Source: Bryopsis sp. KO-2023
Lineage: Eukaryota > Chlorophyta > Ulvophyceae > Bryopsidales > Bryopsidaceae
Length of the DNA stretch: 64,000 bases
Direction: 5' to 3'
NCBI GenBank assembly: GCA_030272585.1
Contig: BSYQ01000012.1
Coordinates: 1,550,001 to 1,614,000 of the forward strand
The notes beneath the pieces were generated by a model. The model saw nothing but the letters and a program-made list of their open reading frames with translations, searched no databases and was not told the origin of the DNA. How positions within the stretch are numbered: the stretch's first letter is position 1; every line of letters begins with the position of its first letter. A program made the position numbers and the translations under genes. Positions 13,675 through 59,508 of this stretch are shown here, in pieces.

Positions 13675-13759
13675 GCACAAGTGGTGGAGTGGTCCAAGGC
13701 GTCAAGCTTAAAACTTTATGGAGAGAGTCTCCGCGTGGGTTCGAACCCTTTCTTGTGCA
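13675..13759 (+). tRNA. Degenerate tRNA-Leu(UAA)-like sequence
   Basis: An 85-nt class II tRNA shape. It has a perfect 7-bp acceptor stem (GCACAAG/CTTGTGC), a D-loop GAGTGGTCCAA typical of tRNA-Leu, an anticodon loop CTTAAAA with UAA at positions 34-36, a long variable arm (GGAG/CTCC) and a TTCGAAC T-loop. The D stem, anticodon stem and T stem each contain mismatches (for example GTGGG against CCTTT). It is probably a decaying copy or a tRNA-derived repeat, with no sign of a flanking SINE body. Confidence 0.45.
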
Positions 13760-25050: not shown

Positions 25051-26425
25051 GTTGACAATTGCGTGGTTTTCGTGTTGATTTCAGTTTTTATACTTTCACA
25101 CATTTACTTTTTCCAATTATGTGTTGGTTTTTTCTTCAAACAATTTTTTTGTCGACGTTGTTTTAGCATGGTTTTGTTTTCGTAGACTTTTTGTTTTCAA
25201 TTGTCGTCAAGCCTTTTTATTCTTGTCCATGCAAGTAGAAATTGACTTTCGATGATTGTTTTTTTTTCAAGGCATCGGTTTTCGTTTATTTAGCTTTTAG
25301 CAAGGCAAGCCTACCCTCTGGTTGATGTACCGTTCAAGGAAAATTTTTCCCCGGAGTTATTTAAAAAAACTCTTGAATCGACAGCAGTTTTTCGGGATCG
25401 CTTAAAAAAAAACTCCAAGGCTTTGTTGGATCATTTTGAGCAAAAAATGGAGTTTTAAGAAGCAAATACACAAGAATATCTTCTCAAAAAAGACACAATC
25501 TAAAAAAAGTATTTAATTTTTCAAACAAAAAACTGGCGGTTCTGACCGGATATCCTGTGGTGTCAAAAATTTTCTCGGTCAATTGTGAAGGTTCAATGAC
25601 ACACGACATCGCAAAGTTCGTGGTTAGGACATGAATAATGGTTTCAAACCCGGCTAGTCATTGCGGCTGAGGACTCTTGAGTCAGAATTTTTCGATTAAA
25701 TATTCAACGAGTCTAATGCTAAATGCCCAACTCGCTCGAAAAAAGCCACCAACATAAGGTAGAGATCAACGAGCATAAATTCTGTCAGTTGCAACTAGGA
25801 AGTGACGCCGCTAGTGTGCGAACGACATATCAACCAGTTGTTCATATCAAAACATATTTTTCCGCTTCTTTTCCTGTTCCAGGGTCACTCTATTTGTCTC
25901 TTTGCTTGGGGTTTGGGGTTTTCCTTGAACAGTATGGGCACCCTTGGATCTCGTTTTCCAATTAGAAACCTCTTTCCTGGGGAAATTTTGCTTCCATGGG
26001 GACAATCTCCCCCCCCCCCCAAAAAAAAACAAAAACAAACAGAAAGGTACATTCCTCCACGAGAATTAGTCATGATAATTACGATTAGTCATGGTAACGT
26101 CCAGCTTCCTGTTCTGGAAGATCTCTTGAGCATTGGTCTGACCATTGCTGCCATCGTCACGGCAGGAATTGTCACACAAAACGCACCCCGTTCCCACGGC
26201 AACCGCTCCACTTTTTTTAATCCTCTAAACACCAAAACCTACTCGAGCAGAGTTTTCACGCTTCGGATTTTTTTTTCTGGTAAACAGAAAAAAGTTGTTC
26301 AAGACTCCGTTTCTCCTGTTCGCGTAACAGAACAGGTCCGACTAATTTTCCCGATTTCGCTCCCTCTTTTGCGTGGGGACTCAAAGAGCCGCCTGTGTTT
26401 TCTTTATGATGGCGGGTCAGCGAAA
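25051..26425. other. No gene recognised; upstream of F-box gene
   Basis: AT-rich with homopolymer runs. An open frame extends upstream from the F-box gene (from 25802) but has unlikely composition, including a poly-C/poly-A junction at about 26010. It is probably 5' UTR or promoter. Confidence 0.4.
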
Positions 26426-27442
26426 ATGAGCGATAACGTGAGTGTTGAGTGGGAGCTCCCGAGTGGCGTTCTCGATCGAATTTTCGACGAGTTCTGCCCC
26501 AAAACTCTGGCCAGGTGCTCCTGTGTTACTAAAGCTTGGAACGATGTCACCAAAGACGACCGTTTCGCTGAAAAAGTTGGTCTAGAGAAAGCCTGGCGAT
26601 GTGGGGTGGTTGCGCCGAAATGTATCGAGTTCCACAAGACTGGGTGGACTGACAGTTGTGATATGAGGGGCGAGAAGCTCGCGATGGTCAAGGGCACGAA
26701 GATTATCTTGGTGAACGCTGAAACCGGCGAGGTCTTCACCACCACAGACGATGCCACCAGGGGGAGTTCTTGTTTGTGTTTCATCGATGGACTGCTCTTG
26801 TGCAAGTCCAGCGAAGATTTCAAAATCATGTGCGTGTTGGAAGTGCCCGAACTCGAAAAAACCTCAACTCAAGAACTCAAGAAAATCGCCTCTCTGAGGC
26901 TTCGTTTCGCAGTTGATGTGATCGTGGACGTTGGAGGATACGTGGCCTTTGCTGGTGTTGGGGGGGGGTCGAACTGTGGAGCAAGACGGATTGGACACGT
27001 GCAAAGGTTTTGAACGAGGGGGATTGGGTGTTGTCGCAAAACGATGTCCTGTGCGCGGCTTTCGCTAAGGGGGCGGCCTTGTTGATATGTGGGTTGATTA
27101 TTGGGCATCTCCAAGTGTGGAGCTTGACGCTCAAGGGGCACTCTGGTCCCGTCGAGGGCGTTGGCGCGTGTTTGTGTTTTGTTGCGTATAGGTCTTTTTT
27201 TGACGGAGGATAAGCTCACAACTGCAAGGGATGACGGGAAAATTTTGGTTTGGGATTTCTTTGCGCACTCTAGCATGCTACAAAGAGTAAGAATTTTTGA
27301 TGTGTGTTATGAGAAACTTTGTTCATATGGTTTGTTTCTGTTATCTTATGTTGTTGAAATATGGCGCCAAGAGACGAGGCTCATGAATTTCAAAGTATCG
27401 CACAAAGTATCAAAAAACACTAGAATTTCGATATCGAAATAG
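26426..27442 (+). pseudogene. F-box/WD40-like gene with two homopolymer frameshifts
   Basis: The ATG at 26426 opens directly into an F-box (LPSGVLDRIFDEFCPKTLAR, then CSCVTKAWNDVTKD, residues ~11-45). A propeller-like part follows (GTKIILVNAETGEVFTT). The frame must shift at the G run near 26959-26967 to continue into VELWSKTDWTRAKVL and LKGHSGPVEGV. It shifts again at the T run near 27193-27199 to reach LTTARDDGKILVWDF, a typical WD40 repeat end. F-box/WD40 proteins are substrate receptors of SCF ubiquitin ligases. The repeat number is too low for a full propeller, so the gene is either truncated and dying or intact with sequencing errors at homopolymers. Confidence 0.6.
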
Positions 27443-28746: not shown

Positions 28747-31700
28747 CTACCGTTTTTTCCATGCAAAAAATAACAAGTCGGACTCCGTCGCGACCTGCGC
28801 TTTGTCGATATACGACCAAACGGCCGTCGACGATGCAGACCACCCCCCCCAGAATTTAATGTCCCCTTCACTAATCCCAATCGCATACATTGCGGATGCG
28901 CCGCCCCGACGAAGAGAGTGATGGCCATACACACAACCCTTAGGCAATCCACTTGCGTCTCCAAAATTCAAGATAACTCTGGAGAAGCACTTCGCCACAA
29001 ATTTCGCATCCAATGAAACTGGCTCGCCAGGCAATCGCCATAATGAGGCGAGTGGAGACGTCGCCATTTCGTGATCCTGGCCCCAGTTTTCTTTCCGCGC
29101 TTTCAAAAACTTTTCAAACGCCCCGAAAACCTCTGGGCACCCCGAACAAGGAAAAAGCCTCGACCGTCGCAACTCAAAAGCATTATGCGCTTTATAGCGT
29201 CGCTCGATAAAATGTATCGTGCACTCACCCGCATCCAGTTCCAGATCCTGCAGGCGAACCGCGAACGCCGTATCCGCCCGAGCGAAGAAAAGGAAATCGA
29301 ATACCATCAATAAAAGATCTCTGACTTGAGGAAGGGTCAGATCCTGTTCCCGAACCAGAGATAGCCAAAATTGGACCGCCCTGGAGGGCACTGGCGAGTG
29401 CTGCACCGGAATCTTCTCCGGTGATTGTTCCGCCAAATCCTTGCCCCATCCCGCGATAAACCTCTTGGTCACCTCGTCCGAAAGTTTCAAGGCGCCCAAC
29501 ATAGTCCACGAGTGCATGGATTGGATCGCCGTCCAATACTGGCGCGCGGACACAGGACTCACTTTTCCTTCCTCTTTCAAAAAAGTCAAGTACTCATAAA
29601 TCTCCGGGGTTAATACAGGAAACGGGGGTTTCCCTTTGGTAGACTGCATAAAATGCCAAAATTTTCTAAACTTTGCAAAAATAGTATCCCGTCCAGACGG
29701 CGCATTCGATGCAATAATCTTGCGAACCAAATCGGGCACCACATGCAGCCGCAAAGCCACAATCTCAGACGGCCATTGTATATCCACTTCTAGCAAACGC
29801 TCCCAATCATACTGTTGCTGTCCAAACTCCTCGTTTAATACTGCGAGGACAATCTTTCGAAGGGAATTACCTTGTCCTTCCAGAACCAAACCTTCTTCGG
29901 TTTGTTGATAATCCACACTACCGAACGCCAAGGGGGGTACGGGGTCTGGTTGCACGTCCCCGGATGAGGTAAAAATGTCCCTGCTCGATCCGGGAGCCAA
30001 ATCCCTCCTTGGGCTAGGCTCATCACGTGGCGACACCACACTGCTCCGGGCCACCAAGGCAGTACCAACAGGGCACGAACTCGCGGTAGGTTGTTGAGGA
30101 AGTCGATAGTTTTCTCCAACAATCCCCAGGGTGGGTGAACGAACGAAACGCCTCTGTCCCAATCCCTCTGGGAGAGAGCATCGATGCCTGAGCTCTCGTG
30201 TTCCCAAGTTCGTGAGTTGTATTCCTCCACTTGCCGATCCCTGAGCGTGGCAAACCGGTCTATCCGAACCGGGCCAAAGTGAACCTCCAACCGACGAAAA
30301 ATAGCCGGATTGAGTCTCCAGCCATGAGACTGGAGGCGGCTCAATGCGTCTGCCTGGAAATTGTCCTGGGAGGCCACCCAACGTGGGCACAACCGCGCCC
30401 CCGTCCGCGTCAGAAATTCGACGATCTGCTGTAATACAGGAACCAGAGTCGGCTCGTACACCCGTAGCTTCTTGAGCGCCCAATAAGTTACCCTGGAGTC
30501 CGTAACCACGGATACCAGACATTTGTCGAGGCATGGTTCCCAATGCTCCAAGGCGCGCGACACTGCCGTCAGCTCCTTCCAATTGATTGACTGTTGCTGA
30601 TAGTCGGCCTGAAAAGAGCCGTGACACACTGCCCCCTGTGCTCGTCGCTCCCGCTCGTCGGTCTCCACCAAGCCTTTCAACAACGAGGCCCCCCAGCCGG
30701 TGAGGGAGGCGTCGGTTTCCAGCGTCCAATGGATCTTCCCGGCTTTCCACCGAGTTCCATTCCAGGACGCGGGAACGTTTCGCCACCACTGCAACTCCCT
30801 CCTCGCGGCTGCAGATATGGGAACCCATGAATTCCAAGTCTTCTTTTGACCGATCTGAGCGTATAAATGGCTCAAATAGAACCTGGCGGCGCTTAACGCT
30901 GGGCTGGTGCTCTGGCAAAGGCCACAGAACGATGCCACCAGTCGAACTGGGAGCTTCCAACGCTGTCGGCGCCCCCGATCGAGCAACAACCGTGCCAACC
31001 CCTGGATCCGACACAACCTTGTAACCGGTACTCGTAAAAGACATTGATTGGTATCTATTTCTAATCCCAAATGAATCCTCCTCCTGGAGGGCGAAAAATC
31101 GCTCTTGATGGGGTGGACTAACAGGCCTAAAGCCTGGAAAAATTTCTGAATCCACCTGCCCCATCGAGACAAAACCTTTTTCCCCTTGTATAACGCTAGA
31201 AAGTCGTCTAAATACACTAAAAGCGTGACGGGAATATCGGCTTTCCAAATTTTCTTCAAAATGCCCCCTGGCGGACAAGCCACTTGTCGCGGAAAACGTA
31301 AAAAGGACGACACATCCTTCATCACCTTTGTCCATACAAAGGGCGAAATACACAAACCAAACGGCAATGCACAACACTCGAATAGACGACCATTTACCAT
31401 AATCGTCAAATATTTCCTCAGCTTGGGGTGGATGGGCACATGGAAGTACGCATGTTTCAAGTCCCATTGAATCATGTGGGCGGCTTCTGGAAAATGGCCG
31501 ACCGCCGACTGCAGAGTCTCGAACCGGACTTTGGGAACCTGAATCCACTGATTGATTGGTCGTAAATCCATGATGAGCCTGTAGTCGGGAGAATCGCGTT
31601 TCTTGATCAAGAAGGCCTTGGACACCCAGCGATTCGAACGGGCCGGCCGTAACACCCCGAGATCCAAATACTCTTGTAAAATCTTGTCCCATGCTTGACC

Positions 31701-31911
31701 AGTTGCCCCCTCCATCACTGAATTCCCCTCGTGGAAGGGGGGCGGCGGTCCTGAGATCCAATTCCAATCCACCCCCTGATGCAACCATTTCATTGTGCGC
31801 CGGGAAGCTCCCATACGTCTCCAAATCGTCAACCGCTTCCTCGGCTGATTGAAGAGAAAAGTCGTCTGATCGCGAACTGGCCATTCTGCTGGCGGCCGAT
31901 ACCGCATTCAC
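28747..31911 (-). CDS. DIRS element ORF3: tyrosine recombinase (frame open far upstream)
   Basis: The recombinase occupies roughly the last 390 codons (about 28747-29920). Its core motifs are the first Arg in FFARADTAFAVRL, HxxR in YGHHSLRRGGASA and the nucleophile Tyr in AVWSYIDKA. It cuts and joins the circular DNA product at the target. The same frame stays open without a stop back to 31911, over the whole RT ORF (offset by one base). The true start is not visible. Expression may need an internal start, a frameshift or splicing. The upstream part has no recognisable domain. Confidence 0.8.
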   Translation of the reverse strand: MNAVSAASRMASSRSDDFSLQSAEEAVDDLETYGSFPAHNEMVASGGGLELDLRTAAPLPRGEFSDGGGNWSSMGQDFTRVFGSRGVTAGPFESLGVQGLLDQETRFSRLQAHHGFTTNQSVDSGSQSPVRDSAVGGRPFSRSRPHDSMGLETCVLPCAHPPQAEEIFDDYGKWSSIRVLCIAVWFVYFALCMDKGDEGCVVLFTFSATSGLSARGHFEENLESRYSRHAFSVFRRLSSVIQGEKGFVSMGQVDSEIFPGFRPVSPPHQERFFALQEEDSFGIRNRYQSMSFTSTGYKVVSDPGVGTVVARSGAPTALEAPSSTGGIVLWPLPEHQPSVKRRQVLFEPFIRSDRSKEDLEFMGSHICSREEGVAVVAKRSRVLEWNSVESREDPLDAGNRRLPHRLGGLVVERLGGDRRAGATSTGGSVSRLFSGRLSATVNQLEGADGSVARLGALGTMPRQMSGIRGYGLQGNLLGAQEATGVRADSGSCITADRRISDADGGAVVPTLGGLPGQFPGRRIEPPPVSWLETQSGYFSSVGGSLWPGSDRPVCHAQGSASGGIQLTNLGTRELRHRCSLPEGLGQRRFVRSPTLGIVGENYRLPQQPTASSCPVGTALVARSSVVSPRDEPSPRRDLAPGSSRDIFTSSGDVQPDPVPPLAFGSVDYQQTEEGLVLEGQGNSLRKIVLAVLNEEFGQQQYDWERLLEVDIQWPSEIVALRLHVVPDLVRKIIASNAPSGRDTIFAKFRKFWHFMQSTKGKPPFPVLTPEIYEYLTFLKEEGKVSPVSARQYWTAIQSMHSWTMLGALKLSDEVTKRFIAGWGKDLAEQSPEKIPVQHSPVPSRAVQFWLSLVREQDLTLPQVRDLLLMVFDFLFFARADTAFAVRLQDLELDAGECTIHFIERRYKAHNAFELRRSRLFPCSGCPEVFGAFEKFLKARKENWGQDHEMATSPLASLWRLPGEPVSLDAKFVAKCFSRVILNFGDASGLPKGCVYGHHSLRRGGASAMYAIGISEGDIKFWGGWSASSTAVWSYIDKAQVATESDLLFFAWKKR
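29835..31907 (-). CDS. DIRS element ORF2: reverse transcriptase, RNase H and adenine-methyltransferase-like domain
   Basis: 690 codons. Reverse transcriptase: LDLGVLRPARSNRWVSKAFL and PDYRLIMDLRPINQWI near residues 85-130, MIQWDLKHAYFHVPIH (~160), CCALPFGLCISPFVWTK (~190) and the catalytic YLDDFLA (~245). RNase H: acidic residues in WTLETDASLTGWGA, INWKELTAVSRALEHW, SVVTDSRVTYWAL and DNFQADALSRL. Last comes the DAM-like methyltransferase domain typical of DIRS elements, with VHPPWGLLEKTIDFLN where active enzymes have Asn/Asp-Pro-Pro-Tyr/Trp. The ATG abuts the Gag stop, suggesting reinitiation. No stop or frameshift was seen. Confidence 0.88.
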   Translation of the reverse strand: MRYRPPAEWPVRDQTTFLFNQPRKRLTIWRRMGASRRTMKWLHQGVDWNWISGPPPPFHEGNSVMEGATGQAWDKILQEYLDLGVLRPARSNRWVSKAFLIKKRDSPDYRLIMDLRPINQWIQVPKVRFETLQSAVGHFPEAAHMIQWDLKHAYFHVPIHPKLRKYLTIMVNGRLFECCALPFGLCISPFVWTKVMKDVSSFLRFPRQVACPPGGILKKIWKADIPVTLLVYLDDFLALYKGKKVLSRWGRWIQKFFQALGLLVHPIKSDFSPSRRRIHLGLEIDTNQCLLRVPVTRLCRIQGLARLLLDRGRRQRWKLPVRLVASFCGLCQSTSPALSAARFYLSHLYAQIGQKKTWNSWVPISAAARRELQWWRNVPASWNGTRWKAGKIHWTLETDASLTGWGASLLKGLVETDERERRAQGAVCHGSFQADYQQQSINWKELTAVSRALEHWEPCLDKCLVSVVTDSRVTYWALKKLRVYEPTLVPVLQQIVEFLTRTGARLCPRWVASQDNFQADALSRLQSHGWRLNPAIFRRLEVHFGPVRIDRFATLRDRQVEEYNSRTWEHESSGIDALSQRDWDRGVSFVHPPWGLLEKTIDFLNNLPRVRALLVLPWWPGAVWCRHVMSLAQGGIWLPDRAGTFLPHPGTCNQTPYPPWRSVVWIINKPKKVWFWKDKVIPFERLSSQY

Positions 31912-32606
31912 TTCTTTGGATGATTCTGATTCTGCGGAGGCTGCTGCTGTTGCTGAGCCCCAGAATTCTCGCCCTGTCCTTGCTGCGCTCCTTTACGAGA
32001 ACGACCTTTTTTCTGATCACCCCGAGAGGGCGTAGTAGCGTGCTTAACCTGCGCCCGCTGCAACTGCTCCCGAAACGAGCCGAAATATTCGTGGGCCACT
32101 GGGGCGGAATATCCCCGGAACTGAGCTCCTTGTAATCGAATCTGATTCTGCAGCCCTGCTGCTGCACCGGGAACGTCAGGGTCTTGGGAACCCCGCGTCT
32201 GTAACACCTGCCACTGGGCAACAGCTAAATCCAAGGTGCGTACTTGCGCAGACACAATCGGGTGGAGATGTTCACGCAGTGCCTTCGGAACTCCAGGGTG
32301 CGCCAAGAACCCAACCAGATTAGCAGTAGTCACAAACAGCGAATACAATACCGGGGCTGTATTCGCAATCTCCTGCCAGAAGCCTGAGCGTTTCCCCAGA
32401 GTCGATTGTAACTCTAGACCGTCCGCCGTTCGCCCGAAATCAAACCAAAGTCCCAAAGTCGCTCCTGTCGAGGGAGCCTCGACCGGGTTATTCGCCGCGG
32501 GCAAAAGGGTTGTATCCGACAATTGTCGATACAAAGCCAAATCTTGCGGGATAGAAACTCCGTAGTTTCGAGCTGCTGTGGTATACAATGGTAAAAGACG
32601 ATCCAT
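31908..32606 (-). CDS. DIRS element ORF1, Gag-like protein
   Basis: A 232-codon protein with no recognised domain, placed first in the element where Gag is expected. It starts MDRLLPLYTTAARNYG, 109 nt inside repeat A1's inner edge. It has a helical middle and ends in a basic, Gln/Asn-rich tail (KGRSRKGAQQGQGENSGAQQ) that suits nucleic-acid binding. There is no CCHC knuckle. Its TGA stop is followed at once by the ATG of the RT ORF. Confidence 0.7.
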   Translation of the reverse strand: MDRLLPLYTTAARNYGVSIPQDLALYRQLSDTTLLPAANNPVEAPSTGATLGLWFDFGRTADGLELQSTLGKRSGFWQEIANTAPVLYSLFVTTANLVGFLAHPGVPKALREHLHPIVSAQVRTLDLAVAQWQVLQTRGSQDPDVPGAAAGLQNQIRLQGAQFRGYSAPVAHEYFGSFREQLQRAQVKHATTPSRGDQKKGRSRKGAQQGQGENSGAQQQQQPPQNQNHPKK

Positions 32607-52678: not shown

Positions 52679-52892
52679 GTCATCACTGAGGAGGAAGTGG
52701 CCACTCGGTACACCGTAACAACGGTAACCGCCAAAATAATGGATCACAAAGTTACATACGTCATTTTGGTCACAAGGGCAAGCGCTTTTGTAATCAAAAA
52801 CAATCCTGGAAACATTTCATCACCGACACCTTATGGAAAAGCCTCGAGGACGATACAAGGATTGCAACGACGACACCCGGGTCGCAGTCATA

Positions 52893-53235
52893 CTATGGAT
52901 CCGATCACGATTTGATCGGTCGCCGATCAAGCAATGCGACCGATCAAATCGTGATCGGCCGATCACCGATCTGATCGGTCGCCGATCAGGTCTGGCAGGG
53001 CCGATCATCGATCAAGATCGGCCGATCACTGATCTGATCGGTCGCCCTACTTGATCGGCAGTTTTTGATCGGCCTGATCGTGATCGGCTGATCAAAAACT
53101 GCCGATCAGGTGCCGACAGGGTGCGGCGCTTGATCGAGATCGTGATCGTGATCGGCGCGATCGACTATAATCGGCTTGCGCCGATCATGATCGGCGCAAC
53201 ACCGATCATGATCGGTGGGTCGTCTGCGTCAAGAA
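52893..53235. repeat. Left subterminal GATCGG palindrome array of the hAT element
   Basis: Dense copies of CGATCA/TGATCGG, many arranged as short palindromes such as CCGATCATGATCGG. Similar arrays occur in mirror position at the right end. Subterminal repeats in hAT elements are transposase binding sites; that function is inferred here. Confidence 0.75.
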
Positions 53236-53348
53236 TCGATCATTGATCGCGGGTGAGATGCAGGTGAGTCACGCGGGCACATCGCATGTTCGGTTGCTGT
53301 TAATCTGGTGAGCGTTTAACTCCACGTCTTATCAGCGCCCCGTTCGAA

Positions 53349-56027
53349 ATGGGCCGGCATGGAAAAAGAAAAGCGCTCGTCACCCCTGCGAGGTCGGGGC
53401 AACGCCCACACACGTCCCAGAGGAGACCAGTTCCGACCGGATCTGGAAGCGGGGGGTTGGAACCTCGTCGCCAGGGCAGCGTTCCATCCGTGGGGCCGCA
53501 GGGGTCGGGGCAAGCATCTGACCTGACCAACAGTGCGTTACTCCCTGATCTGTTCCGCCTTGTTGTACTCTTATGGTTTTGTGGGGGGGTGAGGTGTTCC
53601 CTTGTTGGATTGTGTGAGGTGCTTGTGCTTTCTCCAGTTGTTCTGGTTCTGCTTTTATGAGGTGTTTGTCCTGTCCTGCCCTGCCCTGCAGTGAACAGAA
53701 ATGGAAAGGAAGCTGATCTGCTGGAACTGGGTGCAAGCCCTCCTGTGATTCCTGTTCGGAGAAGTAACACATGGGTTGACAAGATGTATGTCAGCAGTCC
53801 AGAAGGCAAGATCCTGGTGTATAAGGATGATCGGGGCAGAAAGGTGGTGTCGTGCAGAATCTGTCATGAACAATTGTCATGGGTGAAGGGAGGCAGGATC
53901 CCCCTTTTGAATCATGCGGCCAAACACGGTATCCGGATCAGTTCCGAAATGGAAATTGCTGTCGCGGAAGGCTTTGAGGGCTGCCATTTGAAAAGGCAAA
54001 CGGATCAGGACATGAAAACAGGCACACAAGGGGGTCGGATCAGTTCTTTTGGGACCCAGAAAACACTCCCGTTTGTGTCTAAATGGGGACCTACTACCCG
54101 GGAGTTCCAGTCGTACCGGCACAAGGTTATGTGCTATCTGGTCAGCGTCGGGGCCCCCTTCAGGACAGTGGAAGATCAGCACTTCCGAGACATGTGCACT
54201 CAACTGAACGCATCTGCTCCGCCTCTATCAGCGAAATCCATGTCTCACCAGGTCGGATTGTCCTCCAACAGGCTTAAAAAAAAGATGAAGGATATGGATC
54301 TGAGCAGATTCCGACCATGCTTTGTTGCTGATGGTTGGTCTCAGCAGCCCAAGCATTGGTTCGCGATGGGGGCTGTCTACATACACCGGGACCCGGAACA
54401 GGATCTGTTCGAACTCAAGCGGATCAGTCTCGGGACCTGGGAAATGGAGGGTACCGCAACTGCTGTGGACATTTGCACAAAAATGAACGAGATCAGGGAG
54501 GACTTTGATCTGACCGGATATCAGGCCAGCATCGTTACCGATCACGAGTCCAGAATGGGGGCAGCATGTGAAATGAACTACAGTTACGATTGGCACGGGT
54601 GCGGGACACACAGAATAAATTTGGGGGTAAAGAAGGGTCTGAAAAATGCCCCCCAAAGCGTGAACGACCTTGTGGCCAAAGTACACGATCTGTGCAGAAC
54701 AGTGATGGGTGCATCCACTCATTGGGAAAAGCTGAAACAGATTCAGATCGATCGAGCCAAAAGAAAAGAAGCTGATCTGGAACGGCAACAAGCGGAGGCT
54801 GCTCCCCAAGAGTTAATTTATGTGGTCCGGTCCTCGACAGCCACGGGTGCCTCTGGGATTGGCAACGGTGGGCTTGGTGAGAGCCCCGGTCCATCTCAAG
54901 TTGATGAGGATGAACTTCTGGAGGATGCACAAGAGGAATCTAATCAAAACGACCATCAGAGCCAGGAACAGGACGACCCCACATCACATGAAATATATTC
55001 AAGTGATGAAGACGCATGTCCCGATGATGGAGACGACGTGGAGGAGGCAGAAGACTGCCCAGGACCTGTCCGCAGATCTGACAAGGTTCTCAGACTGACC
55101 TTGGCGGTGGAGACTAGGTGGAACAGCATCTGGTACATGTTGCATCGATTGTTGATTTTGAAACCCGATCTGATCCAGCTCTTTCCCCTCCTTCCCCCCC
55201 AATACAATATCAACCCCCAAGAATGGAAAGTGCTGCTGGAACTGTACCTGGTTCTGAGGCCATACAAGGAAGCAACCAAGGTACTGGAGGCAGAAAAGAA
55301 GGTGACGGGGAGTGCCGTCCTGATGCTCATGGCTCGGATCAGCGCTGCGGTAGATGCCATGAACATCGAGGAACCGGATGTGATAGACTTCAGAGATGTG
55401 CTCCGCACAGTCATGGACCATGAATTTGACGATCCCGCATGGCTCCTGGCCGTCGGGTGCATGCAGCATCTGGATCCGACCAAACTATCACTCGAAGACG
55501 CTGAGGTGAATCGGTATTTGTGGGGCACCCCAGGGCGCTTTCCTTGCTTGAGGAAGCAATTCAGCAGACCTGATCTGTGGGTTTCAGATGTGCTGCAAGA
55601 GTGCGTGACTCTGCTGAAGGAGATCCGGCTGCGATCAGATTACAGAGGTGTTGACAATCCGGGGGAAGGCAGAGAGGGAAAAAAAAAGAAAAAGGAAAAT
55701 CTCGAACGGGATTGGCTCAGTGTGTGCCCTCCTCCATCTGCTACGGGCGGTTCTAATTCTGATGAGTGGGAGCGATATTGTGGGGTCAGGAGGGTTATTC
55801 AGAGCACTTCATCTGTTCTGGACTGGTGGAGGGTACACCAGGCGGCATACCCAACAGTTTCGATCCTGGCTGCCGAGTATCTCTGCATCCCAGCCTCCAG
55901 CGCCTCGGTTGAGCGGATGTTCAGTGTCAATGGCCACCAGCTGAACAAGCGCAGGAGGGCGATGGAGGAGAGCAAGGTCAACCAACTGACCGTGCTCCGG
56001 GACAATCTGCATCTGTTCAGGGCATGA
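53349..56027 (+). CDS. hAT transposase (BED zinc finger, catalytic core, hAT dimerisation domain)
   Basis: Cut-and-paste transposase of about 839 residues. Exon 1 is 53349-53532 and exon 2 is 53692-56027, with a GT-AG intron of 159 bp that recreates an ATG codon at the join. A BED-type finger has SCRICHEQL and NHAAKHG near residues 110-140. The first catalytic Asp sits in FVADGWSQQPKHW, the second in SIVTDHESRMGAA followed by the hAT CxxH motif WHGCGTHRINL. A Glu region follows (VETRWNSIWYMLHR, LVLRPYKEATKVLE). The C-terminal dimerisation block has YPTVSILAAEYLCIPASSAS and ERMFSVNG. A long acidic insert (~residues 455-520) separates core blocks. No stop or frameshift occurs, and the length is normal for hAT. 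Exon 1 is less certain. Confidence 0.9.
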
Positions 56028-56239
56028 CCTGAACTGCTTCTGTTTGATTGTGTGGGACAATCTGCAGTCTGATTCAGAACCCTCCTGTTTCGGAGGAACT
56101 CTCCTTTTTTTGGTTTGGGGTGCCGGGTATGTTCTCTGTTTGGGGTGCTGGGTATGGATCAGACAATCTGCATCTTGACCTGGTGTGATTTGCCCCGAGT
56201 TTTGTTTGTTTTGGTATGGGTATGTAATCCAAACTTTTT

Positions 56240-56560
56240 TGAATGCTTGGTAAAAAGTTTCAGAGGTTTCCACAGATTCCAGCACTGATTCAGCCCACAC
56301 AGATAACCCTCTGTTTATGGTTCATGGTTCATTGCATGACTCAAACAAAACAAAAAGTTTCAGAGGTTCCACAGATTCCAACACTGATTCAGCCCACACA
56401 AATAACCCTCTGTTTATGGTTCATGGTTCATTACATGACTCAAACAAAACAAAAAGTTTCAGAGGTTCCACAGATTCCAGCACTGATTCAGCCCACACAA
56501 ATAACCCTCTGTTCATGGTTCATGGTTCATTACGTGAATCAAAAAACAGATAACAGATAC
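56240..56560. repeat. 99-bp tandem repeat, three copies, inside the hAT element
   Basis: Units starting GTTTCAGAGGTTCCACAGAT repeat at about 56257, 56357 and 56456, followed by shorter repeats of TTCATGGTTCATTACGTGAA and AACAGATAACAGATA to about 56620. It lies between the converging ends of the two element genes. The open frame through it results from a repeat length divisible by three. Confidence 0.8.
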
Positions 56561-56649
56561 CAGACTGGTTCATGGTTCATTACGTGAATCAAAAAACAGA
56601 TAACAGATAACAGATAACCCTCTGTTTATGGTGACTCAAAACAGGTTAT

Positions 56650-58493
56650 TTAATTTGGCTCCTCCTCCTCCACCAACCTCCCATCCGGTCCAACCCTGAC
56701 CCGATACACACGTGTGCGGTCTTCAGGGATCGGTGCAAAGTCGACCGAGCCAGTATCCAGGTCCCTCATTACGTTTCGGTCCTCCAAACGGGTCTGATGG
56801 TGGAAGAGGCCTTCACGGACTCTGTGGAGAGCGTAACAGTTCTGCAGATACACGTTTTGCACGAACTGATTCAGATGGGGCATGGAGGCGAAGGTTATCG
56901 GGAATTGGATGGTGAAGTCGGGGAAGAAGGCGTACTCCGTCTGCATGTTGGCTCTCTCTCGCTGGGCAGTTCTGCGCTGTTCCCTGCTCCGTTCAGACAT
57001 GATCCTTCGCAAGGGGGCCTGCCTGCGCCGAGGGTACCCCTCACTGTCGTTGATGCAAGGTTGTCCATCAAAATCCATTGGCCACCTGTCCATCAATGGG
57101 GGTCTGGGGTTTGCCTGCCTCTGACCACCATGACCACCCTGGCCACCCTGGCCACCCTGGCCACCCTGGCCACCCTGGCCACCCTGACCACCCTGACCAC
57201 CCTGACCTGCTCTGTTCCTGTTCCTGCCGCCTCCCCCGAATTCCCATCCACCAACATTCCCCCTTCCACCAGCTCCAGCAGCTCTGAACATGTTTGGGGG
57301 TGGCCCTCTTCCACCAGCTTCAGCAGCTCTGAACATGTTTGGGGGTGACCCTCTTCCACCAGCTTCAGCAGCTCTGAACATGTTTGGGGGTGGCCCTCTT
57401 CCACCAGCTTCAGCAGCTCTGAACATGTTTGGGGGTGGCCCTCTTCCACCAGCTTCAGCAGCTCTGAACAGATTGGGGGGTGGCCTTCTTCCACCAGCTT
57501 CAGCGGGTCTGAACAGATTGGGGGGTGGCCCTCTTCCACCAGCTTCAGCGGCTCTGAACAGATTGGGGGGTGGCCCTCTTCCACCAGCTTCAGAGGCTCT
57601 GAACAGCTTGGGGGGTGGCCCTCTTCCACCAGCTCCAGCAGGTCTGAACATGTTTGGGGGGGAGCCTCTTCCACCAGGGTGAAGCACAGGTTCAGGTTCA
57701 TAAACAGACTCCTCGTCCGTCATACTCCACGGGTTTTCCGGCAGCTGCTCAGAGGATCCCTCAGGTTCAGGTTCAGATTCAGGTTCATCTGCGGTTGGAA
57801 GTGTAGCTTCAGGCAAAATCTCTTGTGCAGGATCAGGTGCTGGAAGACTTGCAGCTTCGATGCTCCAGTCGAACGTTCTGCTCGGATCTAGATCAACCTC
57901 GTGCATGGTTGCAACCTCCTCTCTGAGCTGGTCCAGATGAGGCAATAGCTGGCGATCACGAAGGAGTTCTGCAAAAGACAGAATGTGAATGAGAGGGCAG
58001 AGAGAAAAACAACCTAATTTGAACCTGATGCTGGACTGCTCACCTGTAGGCACCATGTAGGGGTATTCCATGTCCCCCAGGTTGGTGCTCCCCTTCTTGG
58101 TCAGTCCTGGAGGTGTCACCTGAATGGAATCGAGTATGGGGTCGATGCGCCTTTCAGGGGGGTTGCCCGCTCGGTACGCTCGCAAGAAAAGTTCGTCTTC
58201 GCTTCCCGCAGCGCTGTCCAGGGCGGATGCAGCTTTCCAGAACAGAGCCTAGGAAGACAAGTAACAGTAACCCTAAGTCAAAACATTCGAAACAGAAACA
58301 GCGCAGCAGATAGCAGGCAGCATACACTTACATTTTCCAGACCAAAATACGTGTTAGGCGACGTCAAATGCCGGAACACCACCTCGGCGGCATCCCGATC
58401 TACCACCGTCCCGGGCTGGAACAGGTCTGTTCGGTTTTGGAGCCTGTTCCGGAGCCTCACGACATACTGCTGTGCTTTGAGTTCCACGTACAT
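56650..58493 (-). CDS. Second gene of the hAT element: Gly/Pro-rich tandem-repeat protein of unknown function
   Basis: About 561 residues from exons 58493-58332, 58248-58044 and 57968-56650. The introns (83 and 75 bp) are GT-AG and keep frame. The N-terminal ~200 residues are non-repetitive and acidic (TVVDRDAAEVVFRHL, ELLRDRQLLPHLDQL, EPEPEGSSEQLPEN). Nine 15-residue repeats with consensus AEAGGRGPPPNMFRA then span about 57270-57670. A run of Gly-Gly-Gln (57125-57200) comes next, followed by a basic, then conserved-looking C-terminus (EYAFFPDFTIQFPITFASMP). I recognise no family. RGG- and GGQ-like composition suggests RNA or DNA binding or condensate formation. Lying wholly inside the element, it is transposon cargo or an accessory transposition factor. 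Confidence 0.7.
57270..57675 (-). repeat. 45-bp coding tandem repeat in the hAT second gene
   Basis: Nine units, on the plus strand each carrying CCACCAGCTTCAGCAGCTCT and GGGGGTGGCCCTCTT. Most differences between units are synonymous or swap Met/Leu at one position and Ala/Pro at another. The unit stays exactly three-divisible, as expected if the peptide is under selection. Confidence 0.9.
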
Positions 58494-58624
58494 CGCAATC
58501 GATCAGCACTGCAGGCGAGACAACAACAAGATACCACGATACAAAGGCGCACGGTGCGGTGAAGTTGAACAGGGAGCGAAGTCGATATATTCGGGACAGT
58601 ACGGCAGAACTGACTAACTTTGGA

Positions 58625-59085
58625 TTTGATCGGAAGTGATGATCGGCGCAAAAGTCGGTTTTTGATTTCTTGGACCGATCATAATCGGAATTTGAAACCA
58701 AATCCCGATCAACCGACCATGATCGGAGCTGATCGGATCAACGGCCGATTAATCGGCGTTTTACCGATCTTGATCGGCCGATTAGGCGTTTGCATGTCGC
58801 AACGCTTGATCGTGATCGGGATCGTGATCGGAGCAACCGATCAGATCGGTGATCGGCGAACCGATCACGATCACGATCAAGCTTTGATCGGCCGACCACG
58901 ATCATCGATCAGGTTTTGATCGGCCGATCACGATCACGATCATCGATCATGATCGGTAAAAAAAAAAAAAAAAAAGACCGATCATTTTCAGAATCATGTG
59001 GAACGAGATCGTATCAGGTCAGATCGATGAAACGACCTGTCCTGACATCGAAAATGGACGGCCGATCATTTCCGATCACGTCCAT
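58625..59085. repeat. Right subterminal GATCGG palindrome array of the hAT element
   Basis: The counterpart of the left array, with GATCGGCCGATC, ACGATCACGATC and similar units just inside the right terminus. It includes an A run at about 58959-58976. The start codon of the second gene (58493) lies just inside, so the array may also act in its promoter. Confidence 0.75.
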
Positions 59086-59508
59086 AGTATGGTCGCAGTT
59101 GGTTTTCTGCCGACCCTTCCTATTGCTATTAGACAGTGCCGCTTGATGGTTCTTTGTCATGTGGTGACAAGCGGCCACTTCCCACTCCTTCTTGGAACTC
59201 GTTGGTTGGTCGCTCCCCATAGTAGTGCCAAGGCGGAAGGGTTACCCCTATCTCAACGAAGTACGACTGGGGAATGTCCCAATAGACTTCACATATGTTG
59301 CGGAGACGTTCGTGGTAGCTACAGTCTTGGATGATCCTCATGTTGGAGGGTGAGATGGAGGTATCGAAAGCCGACCAGCCGGTAACAGAAGCCGTATCTG
59401 CGGAGCCAGCGGTGGTGATCGCAAGGCCGGAAAGACAAAGGGAAATACATTTCAGAATTCGGGAGAAGTGCCGGAGGAGGAGAGAGCTCAACTAAAGGCA
59501 TTGAGGAA

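Follow-up and report, generated by a model that had tools for sequence, protein, structure and literature searches.

The genome of Bryopsis sp. KO-2023 contains a 6,203-bp element that is likely to be a complete, autonomous cut-and-paste transposon from the hAT superfamily that has moved recently, and to be part of a two-protein lineage in which a second gene (ORF2) would encode a dedicated accessory factor to the transposase. The element lies in a 64,000-nucleotide stretch of contig BSYQ01000012.1 (hereafter the window; G000:C12:1550001-1614000) of an assembly of 91,088,769 bases in 28 contigs; its copies are numbered with the prefix L, and it belongs to family A of six related families (A to F). 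It occupies window positions 52889-59091, and its ends are confirmed to the exact base. The element is bounded by perfect 11-bp terminal inverted repeats (TIRs) and flanked by identical 8-bp target-site duplications (TSDs). A first-pass annotation of the window had proposed a complete element with a perfect TSD at this position and a second gene converging on the transposase, and coordinates, TSD and TIR are all exact. The motif GATCGG or its complement CCGATC occurs at 47.8 per kb in the first 400 and last 500 bp versus 0.9 per kb in the middle. The features of the element, in window coordinates, are as follows.

52881..52888, no strand: left TSD GTCGCAGT, 8 bp (from sequence)
52889..52899, plus strand: left TIR CATACTATGGA (from sequence; genome-wide occurrences 264/264)
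52889..53288, no strand: left subterminal region, first 400 bp, dense in GATCGG/CCGATC (motif density)
53349..53532, plus strand: transposase exon 1, predicted (similar exon in family B, with the same donor, acceptor and phase)
53533..53691, plus strand: transposase intron, predicted (GTGCGT...CCCTGCAG; two-exon model)
53692..56027, plus strand: transposase exon 2, with BED-like finger, catalytic region and hAT C-terminal dimerisation domain (domain and profile searches, alignment)
56240..56640, no strand: direct repeats in the interval separating the stop codons of the two convergent genes (by eye from sequence)
56650..57968, minus strand: ORF2 exon 3, with acidic stretch, GGRGPPPNMFRAAEA repeats, GQG repeats and conserved C-terminal domain (gene model, alignment)
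58044..58248, minus strand: ORF2 exon 2, predicted (gene model, family comparison)
58332..58493, minus strand: ORF2 exon 1, predicted, start codon at 58493 (gene model, family comparison)
58592..59091, no strand: right subterminal region, last 500 bp, dense in GATCGG/CCGATC (motif density)
59081..59091, minus strand: right TIR (TCCATAGTATG on the plus strand; from sequence)
59092..59099, no strand: right TSD GTCGCAGT, 8 bp (from sequence)

The sequence CATACTATGGA is found genome-wide at 264 forward and 264 reverse positions, compared with 5 and 11 for a reversed control pattern. Among the first 100 places listed, many pair as opposite ends approximately 1.0, 1.1 or 6.2 kb apart. A search with the transposase scored 60 matches of 249 candidates. 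Of 26 full-length frames including that of the window, 25 are within 21 of 2,259 nucleotides of the window copy, with a median pairwise divergence of 0.27% among these close copies; the outlier, L034, has 68 differences from the window copy. The TSD test was applied at both ends to 23 of the 25 other copies (L016 and L034, whose right end is not predictable, were excluded). The possibility that other copies would have different boundaries, named in the first-pass annotation as grounds for rejecting the element, is not borne out by this test: identical 8-bp flanks are present in 19 of the 23, representing 18 independent sites when L021 and L027 are counted as one. The latter two copies, both on contig C2, have one common flank, which suggests a segmental duplication. 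Empty sites are also present. A DIRS-like retroelement at window positions 28747-32606, which contains reverse transcriptase, RNase H and a weak integrase-type signal below the cut-off, holds the empty target site of L015: this copy sits within a DIRS-like element, and the empty site in the window (31078-31157) is identical at 80 of 80 positions. For L019, repeats close to L034 and L037 contain empty sites that differ at 2 and 1 of 80 positions, respectively. The target site of the window copy itself is single copy, with no paralogous empty site in the genome. Near-identical copies, repeated TSDs, derivatives and empty sites together uphold the claim of recent mobility, and, as judged from these sequences, family A has multiplied in a recent burst.

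The two predicted exons of the transposase gene together encode 839 residues. Since families A and B have in common a 5' exon whose donor, acceptor and phase agree, the transposase is modelled as two exons and the gene is probably spliced rather than a single open frame. The earlier description of a transposase open throughout is thus accurate for the main exon, which is open over a 778-residue frame, but it missed the 5' exon. This 778-residue frame contains the hAT C-terminal dimerisation domain (Dimer_Tnp_hAT, PF05699; expect value [E]=3e-18), a domain detected in all six families. A profile built from the six transposases matches the Hermes transposase (E=3.2e-16), with the significance coming from the C-terminal stretch alone; two collinear upstream stretches are weak (i-Evalues of 490 and 0.77). 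Residues D214, D284 and E741 of the 778-residue frame are invariant in the six families and are candidates for the DDE catalytic triad. The Hermes alignment spans the region of D284 (not significant alone) and that of E741. In five families the aligned sequence extends to the N-terminus, and there a C-x2-C and H-x3-H pattern is seen. The assignment to the hAT superfamily is sustained by the 8-bp TSD, the short TIR, PF05699 and the Hermes profile match.

ORF2 is convergent with the transposase gene in a tail-to-tail arrangement and runs from 58493 to 56650, with three predicted exons separated by GT-AG introns. The predicted protein of 561 residues consists of an N-terminal region, an acidic stretch, GGRGPPPNMFRAAEA repeats, GQG repeats and a C-terminal domain. 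Sequence related to ORF2 is present in all six families examined, and exon 2 or exon 3 plus the C-terminal domain is matched by tblastn in families B to F. Exon 1 in families C to F was assigned by position and by an FGLE-donor motif, which is found in A and in C to F (with a GC donor in C) and is not resolved in family B. The exon layout is similar between families, although ORF2 of family F reads as lacking intron 2. Identity of the C-terminal domain to that of family A is 62% for B, 46% for C, 36% for D, 38% for E and 35% for F, and 28 columns of the alignment are invariant. For all 15 family pairs the synonymous proportion, near saturation in most of them, exceeds the replacement proportion, and by this measure ORF2 is under constraint across families. 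ORF2 diverges somewhat faster than the transposase (identity of 62% versus 65% between A and B, and 36% versus 54% between A and D). Families E and F (L042 and L043) present a different picture in that their transposases are 83% identical in amino acid sequence with a synonymous divergence (dS) of 0.15, while their ORF2 C-terminal domains are 57% identical with a dS of 1.22; a possible explanation of these sequences is module exchange between elements. No relative of either the transposase or ORF2 was found in IMG/VR, and on that search a viral carrier was rejected.

A genome search with the ORF2 C-terminal domain returned 119 rows, of which 106 could be assigned to families A to F by identity and 13 were weak. 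The rows are fragments, and several can derive from one element. Co-location was judged against hAT domain places (150 scored of 185 candidates) together with some transposase matches. A convergent hAT domain lies within 4 kb of 91 of the 106 clear rows and within 15 kb of 98, so that the second gene follows the element; its occurrence outside such elements as a host gene, which the first-pass annotation had named as grounds for rejection, is not borne out by these counts. For the weak rows, a hAT domain is found within 4 kb in 2 of 13 and within 15 kb in 1 more. Contig C2, which makes up about a tenth of the genome, holds 8 of the 13 weak rows, two of the 8 being neighbours.

The related families were compared at their termini. 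Family B (6,850 bp, TSD ACGACGAC), family D (6,965 bp, TSD CTTTTGAG) and family E (5,991 bp, TSD GTTGTATC) are each represented by an element with both ends. In family C, which contains a nested derivative, the element's own ends lack an exact TSD, and for family F one end is seen, the right-hand end not being reached. The TIR is CATACTAKGGA in A, B, D, E and the single end seen of F, and CATACCWGGGA in C. All six families have ends dense in short motifs; family D (L041) has GATCGG at 16.7 per kb in its subterminal regions compared with 31-48 in the others, and is shifted towards (A/G)TCGG. In the phylogeny of the dimerisation domain called for in the first-pass annotation, a branch separates the six families from five other hAT types of the genome and Hermes, with support of 83/85 in a tree of 12 short rows for which long branches were warned. 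The "unfamiliar hAT lineage" of that annotation is therefore a lineage set apart within the Bryopsis genome and in library searches, and is unfamiliar to that extent. At least five other hAT types are present in the genome (L099, L101, L102, L103 and L104), and a type with a 350-residue protein has about 30 scored places.

Shorter derivatives with related ends have also spread recently. A 1,025-bp derivative has at least 41 full-length matches with 97-100% identity, including the query's own place, from a search in which 40 of 334 candidates were scored. Its ends are closest to those of family B (95% over the first 265 bp), while a 1,131-bp derivative has ends closest to family A. TSDs are perfect in 22 of 22 derivatives (20 copies of the 1,025-bp derivative, the query copy and one 1,088-bp derivative). 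The derivatives keep the ends of the element but have neither gene; the element-encoded proteins therefore presumably act in trans, and would be what moves the derivatives. Modules within the derivatives (L006:1501-2525, L040:6716-7846 and L077-L096) contain A-box- and B-box-like sequences. A B box is present on both strands in 19 of the 20 fetched 1,025-bp copies, and a pattern of B box plus tail has 66 + 74 exact genome matches, with 0 for the control. The modules are termed tRNA-like only, since at six loci ARAGORN at default settings calls no tRNA gene and none reaches the gathering score of the Rfam tRNA model.

Target choice is reflected in the TSDs. The pattern across 45 duplications is S-Y-n-n-n-n-R-S, a mild palindromic preference. 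From 19 sites of family A a longer pattern, SYYRYRRS, was derived and then scored on the 22 derivative sites, where the mean score is 5.82 versus 3.85 for random 8-mers of the window, with 0 of 20,000 resamples as high; the window-derived background is a rough control for this score. The inner four positions are weakly biased in the derivatives, and the shorter SYnnnnRS form is therefore preferred. Target consensus sequences of hAT elements include nTnnnnAn (Ac-type) and nnnTAnnn (Buster-type). Among the 45 sites, T at position 2 with A at position 7 occurs in 10 and a central TA in 1.

How ORF2 might contribute can be outlined from these data. The protein would be made by the element and would serve the transposase, probably acting at the GATCGG-rich ends. 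It may bind the subterminal arrays, or transposase bound there, and would then either help assemble the synaptic complex or keep the element ends free of silencing. A stronger version is that this hAT lineage is unable to move or to escape silencing without its own ORF2, which would make ORF2 a new class of transposon-encoded factor without a relative in the libraries searched, recognizing GATCGG arrays and having evolved together with the transposase in at least six families. This version is offered tentatively, as a proposal that falls somewhat short of probable.

Several observations weigh against the element being an active transposon with a dedicated partner protein. Four of the 23 tested copies have no matching TSD at the predicted place: L012 and L023 have no right end in the fetched stretch, L025 has no left end and L030 has no match. 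An N-terminal BED zinc finger is common but not universal among hAT transposases, and the zf-BED family of Pfam is matched in only one of the six families, weakly (E 0.027). Exon 1 of ORF2 gives barely detectable tblastn matches in families C to F (E 0.17 to 1.9). A Pfam search at E up to 1 finds no match for spliced ORF2 of family A, the profile of its C-terminal domain matches nothing credible in the PDB (best E 0.55), and its structure model is poor (mean predicted local distance difference test score [pLDDT] of 52.4). Eight of the 106 clear ORF2 rows lack any hAT domain within 15 kb. One of these, C9:4176902-4177339, is a family E type ORF2 with an open frame of 382 residues, and is unexplained; no family E transposase match was found nearer than approximately 38 kb on its contig (57 of 292 candidates scored). 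The notion that TSD and TIR arose by chance around unrelated reading frames can nevertheless be set aside, as the TIR far exceeds its control in the genome and TSDs are repeated in other copies and derivatives; no point in its support was found. That family A multiplied recently and is now silenced or inactive is unlikely, if far from negligible. Some copies have stops or are fragmentary, as would be expected of a young fossil, but the two-exon gene model is open in 24 of 26 long copies (the start of L030 was not found and the model failed in L034), and both copies and derivatives are near-identical.

ORF2 could also be a captured host gene, a passenger without a role in transposition. ORF2 has no known function, and a hAT domain is absent within 15 kb not only of the eight clear rows, among them the long open frame on C9, but also of 10 of the 13 weak rows. 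This explanation is nonetheless improbable, because ORF2 is conserved: it is kept in six families down to approximately 35% identity with constrained replacement sites and a similar exon layout. In addition, two of the lone rows prove to lie within elements. C16:323259 sits between the ends of copy L028, which are approximately 31 kb apart with a matching TSD, and C2:4332893 is part of a family E copy that has its TIR at the start and matches E at 98.5% identity over 1,766 bp, with similarity lost 261 bp into the sequence retrieved past the gene. Among the remaining lone rows, C11:26936 and C11:27208 are side by side, the first with a stop, C8:3874258 has two stops, and C3:514760 and C2:3342649 have open frames of 193 and 180 residues. 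A coincidental frame or host gene was accordingly judged unlikely on conservation and co-location, with C9:4176902 left over. More plausible, although not favored, is a purely anti-silencing ORF2, which would bind the end repeats and remove repressive marks outside the cutting machinery, in the manner of VANC from the VANDAL elements of Arabidopsis or TnpA from Spm. Against this, hAT transposases themselves typically bind subterminal repeats, as in Ac, and ORF2 has no Pfam match. On the other hand, the ends of all six families are dense in short repeats, with the shift in family D, and the divergence of ORF2, somewhat above that of the transposase, is expected of an arms-race protein. VANC proteins bind tandem repeats in the non-coding regions of their own family (PMC10398659).

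Other features of the window include a tRNA-Leu gene at 13675-13759 and an F-box reading frame at 25802-27013. Elsewhere in the assembly, contig C28 (91,672 bp) is plastid-like, with accD, tufA, rpl19 and clpP read by eye, a gene set that we take to be of the green-lineage plastid type. The Phycobilisome family was not found in a search of the genome, and a red algal host was rejected on that result.

The Bryopsis element resembles other members of the hAT superfamily (Ac, Hermes, Tol2 and BuT2/Tip) in its 8-bp TSD, short TIR, C-terminal dimerisation domain and match to Hermes, but differs from them in its second conserved gene, its CATACTAKGGA termini and its SYnnnnRS target preference. Its shorter relatives are like the non-autonomous derivatives of Ac/Ds type in keeping the TIR, subterminal repeats and 8-bp TSDs, whereas the 1,025- and 1,131-bp derivatives are unlike them in having an inverted pair of tRNA-like modules in the core. 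Published values for the hAT superfamily are TSDs of 8 bp, TIRs of 10-25 bp and an element size of 2.5-5 kb (PMC3942097), a range that the 6.2-kb Bryopsis element exceeds. The hAT7 TET+ elements of Puccinia rust fungi likewise carry a second gene beside the transposase, which encodes a TET/JBP dioxygenase (PMC12730594); a second gene in a hAT element is therefore not new in kind. Membership of the Bryopsis element in this group was rejected, as its TSD is 8 bp rather than 7 bp and ORF2 has no Pfam match as opposed to TET/JBP. No hAT element with an ORF2-type second protein was recognized in the titles and abstract openings of the literature searched, with Repbase Reports taken as outside it.

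To our knowledge, hAT elements are generally viewed as single-gene transposons, and hAT transposition systems serve as tools. That a second gene has persisted over deep divergence suggests help at one step, be it end recognition, synapsis or anti-silencing, which other hAT elements manage alone, and the Bryopsis element could be used to find out why a partner protein is retained in some of them. The element lends itself to direct tests, given its many near-identical copies, its short natural derivative and the empty site on record. Element-encoded proteins besides the transposase are known from other DNA transposons, namely VANC of VANDAL, TnpA of Spm and MURB of MuDR, and in this respect the Bryopsis element is like them. 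These elements belong to other superfamilies (MULE and CACTA), and no Pfam match connects ORF2 to their proteins. VANC is the clearest analogy for ORF2, but no relation between the two was found by Pfam search.

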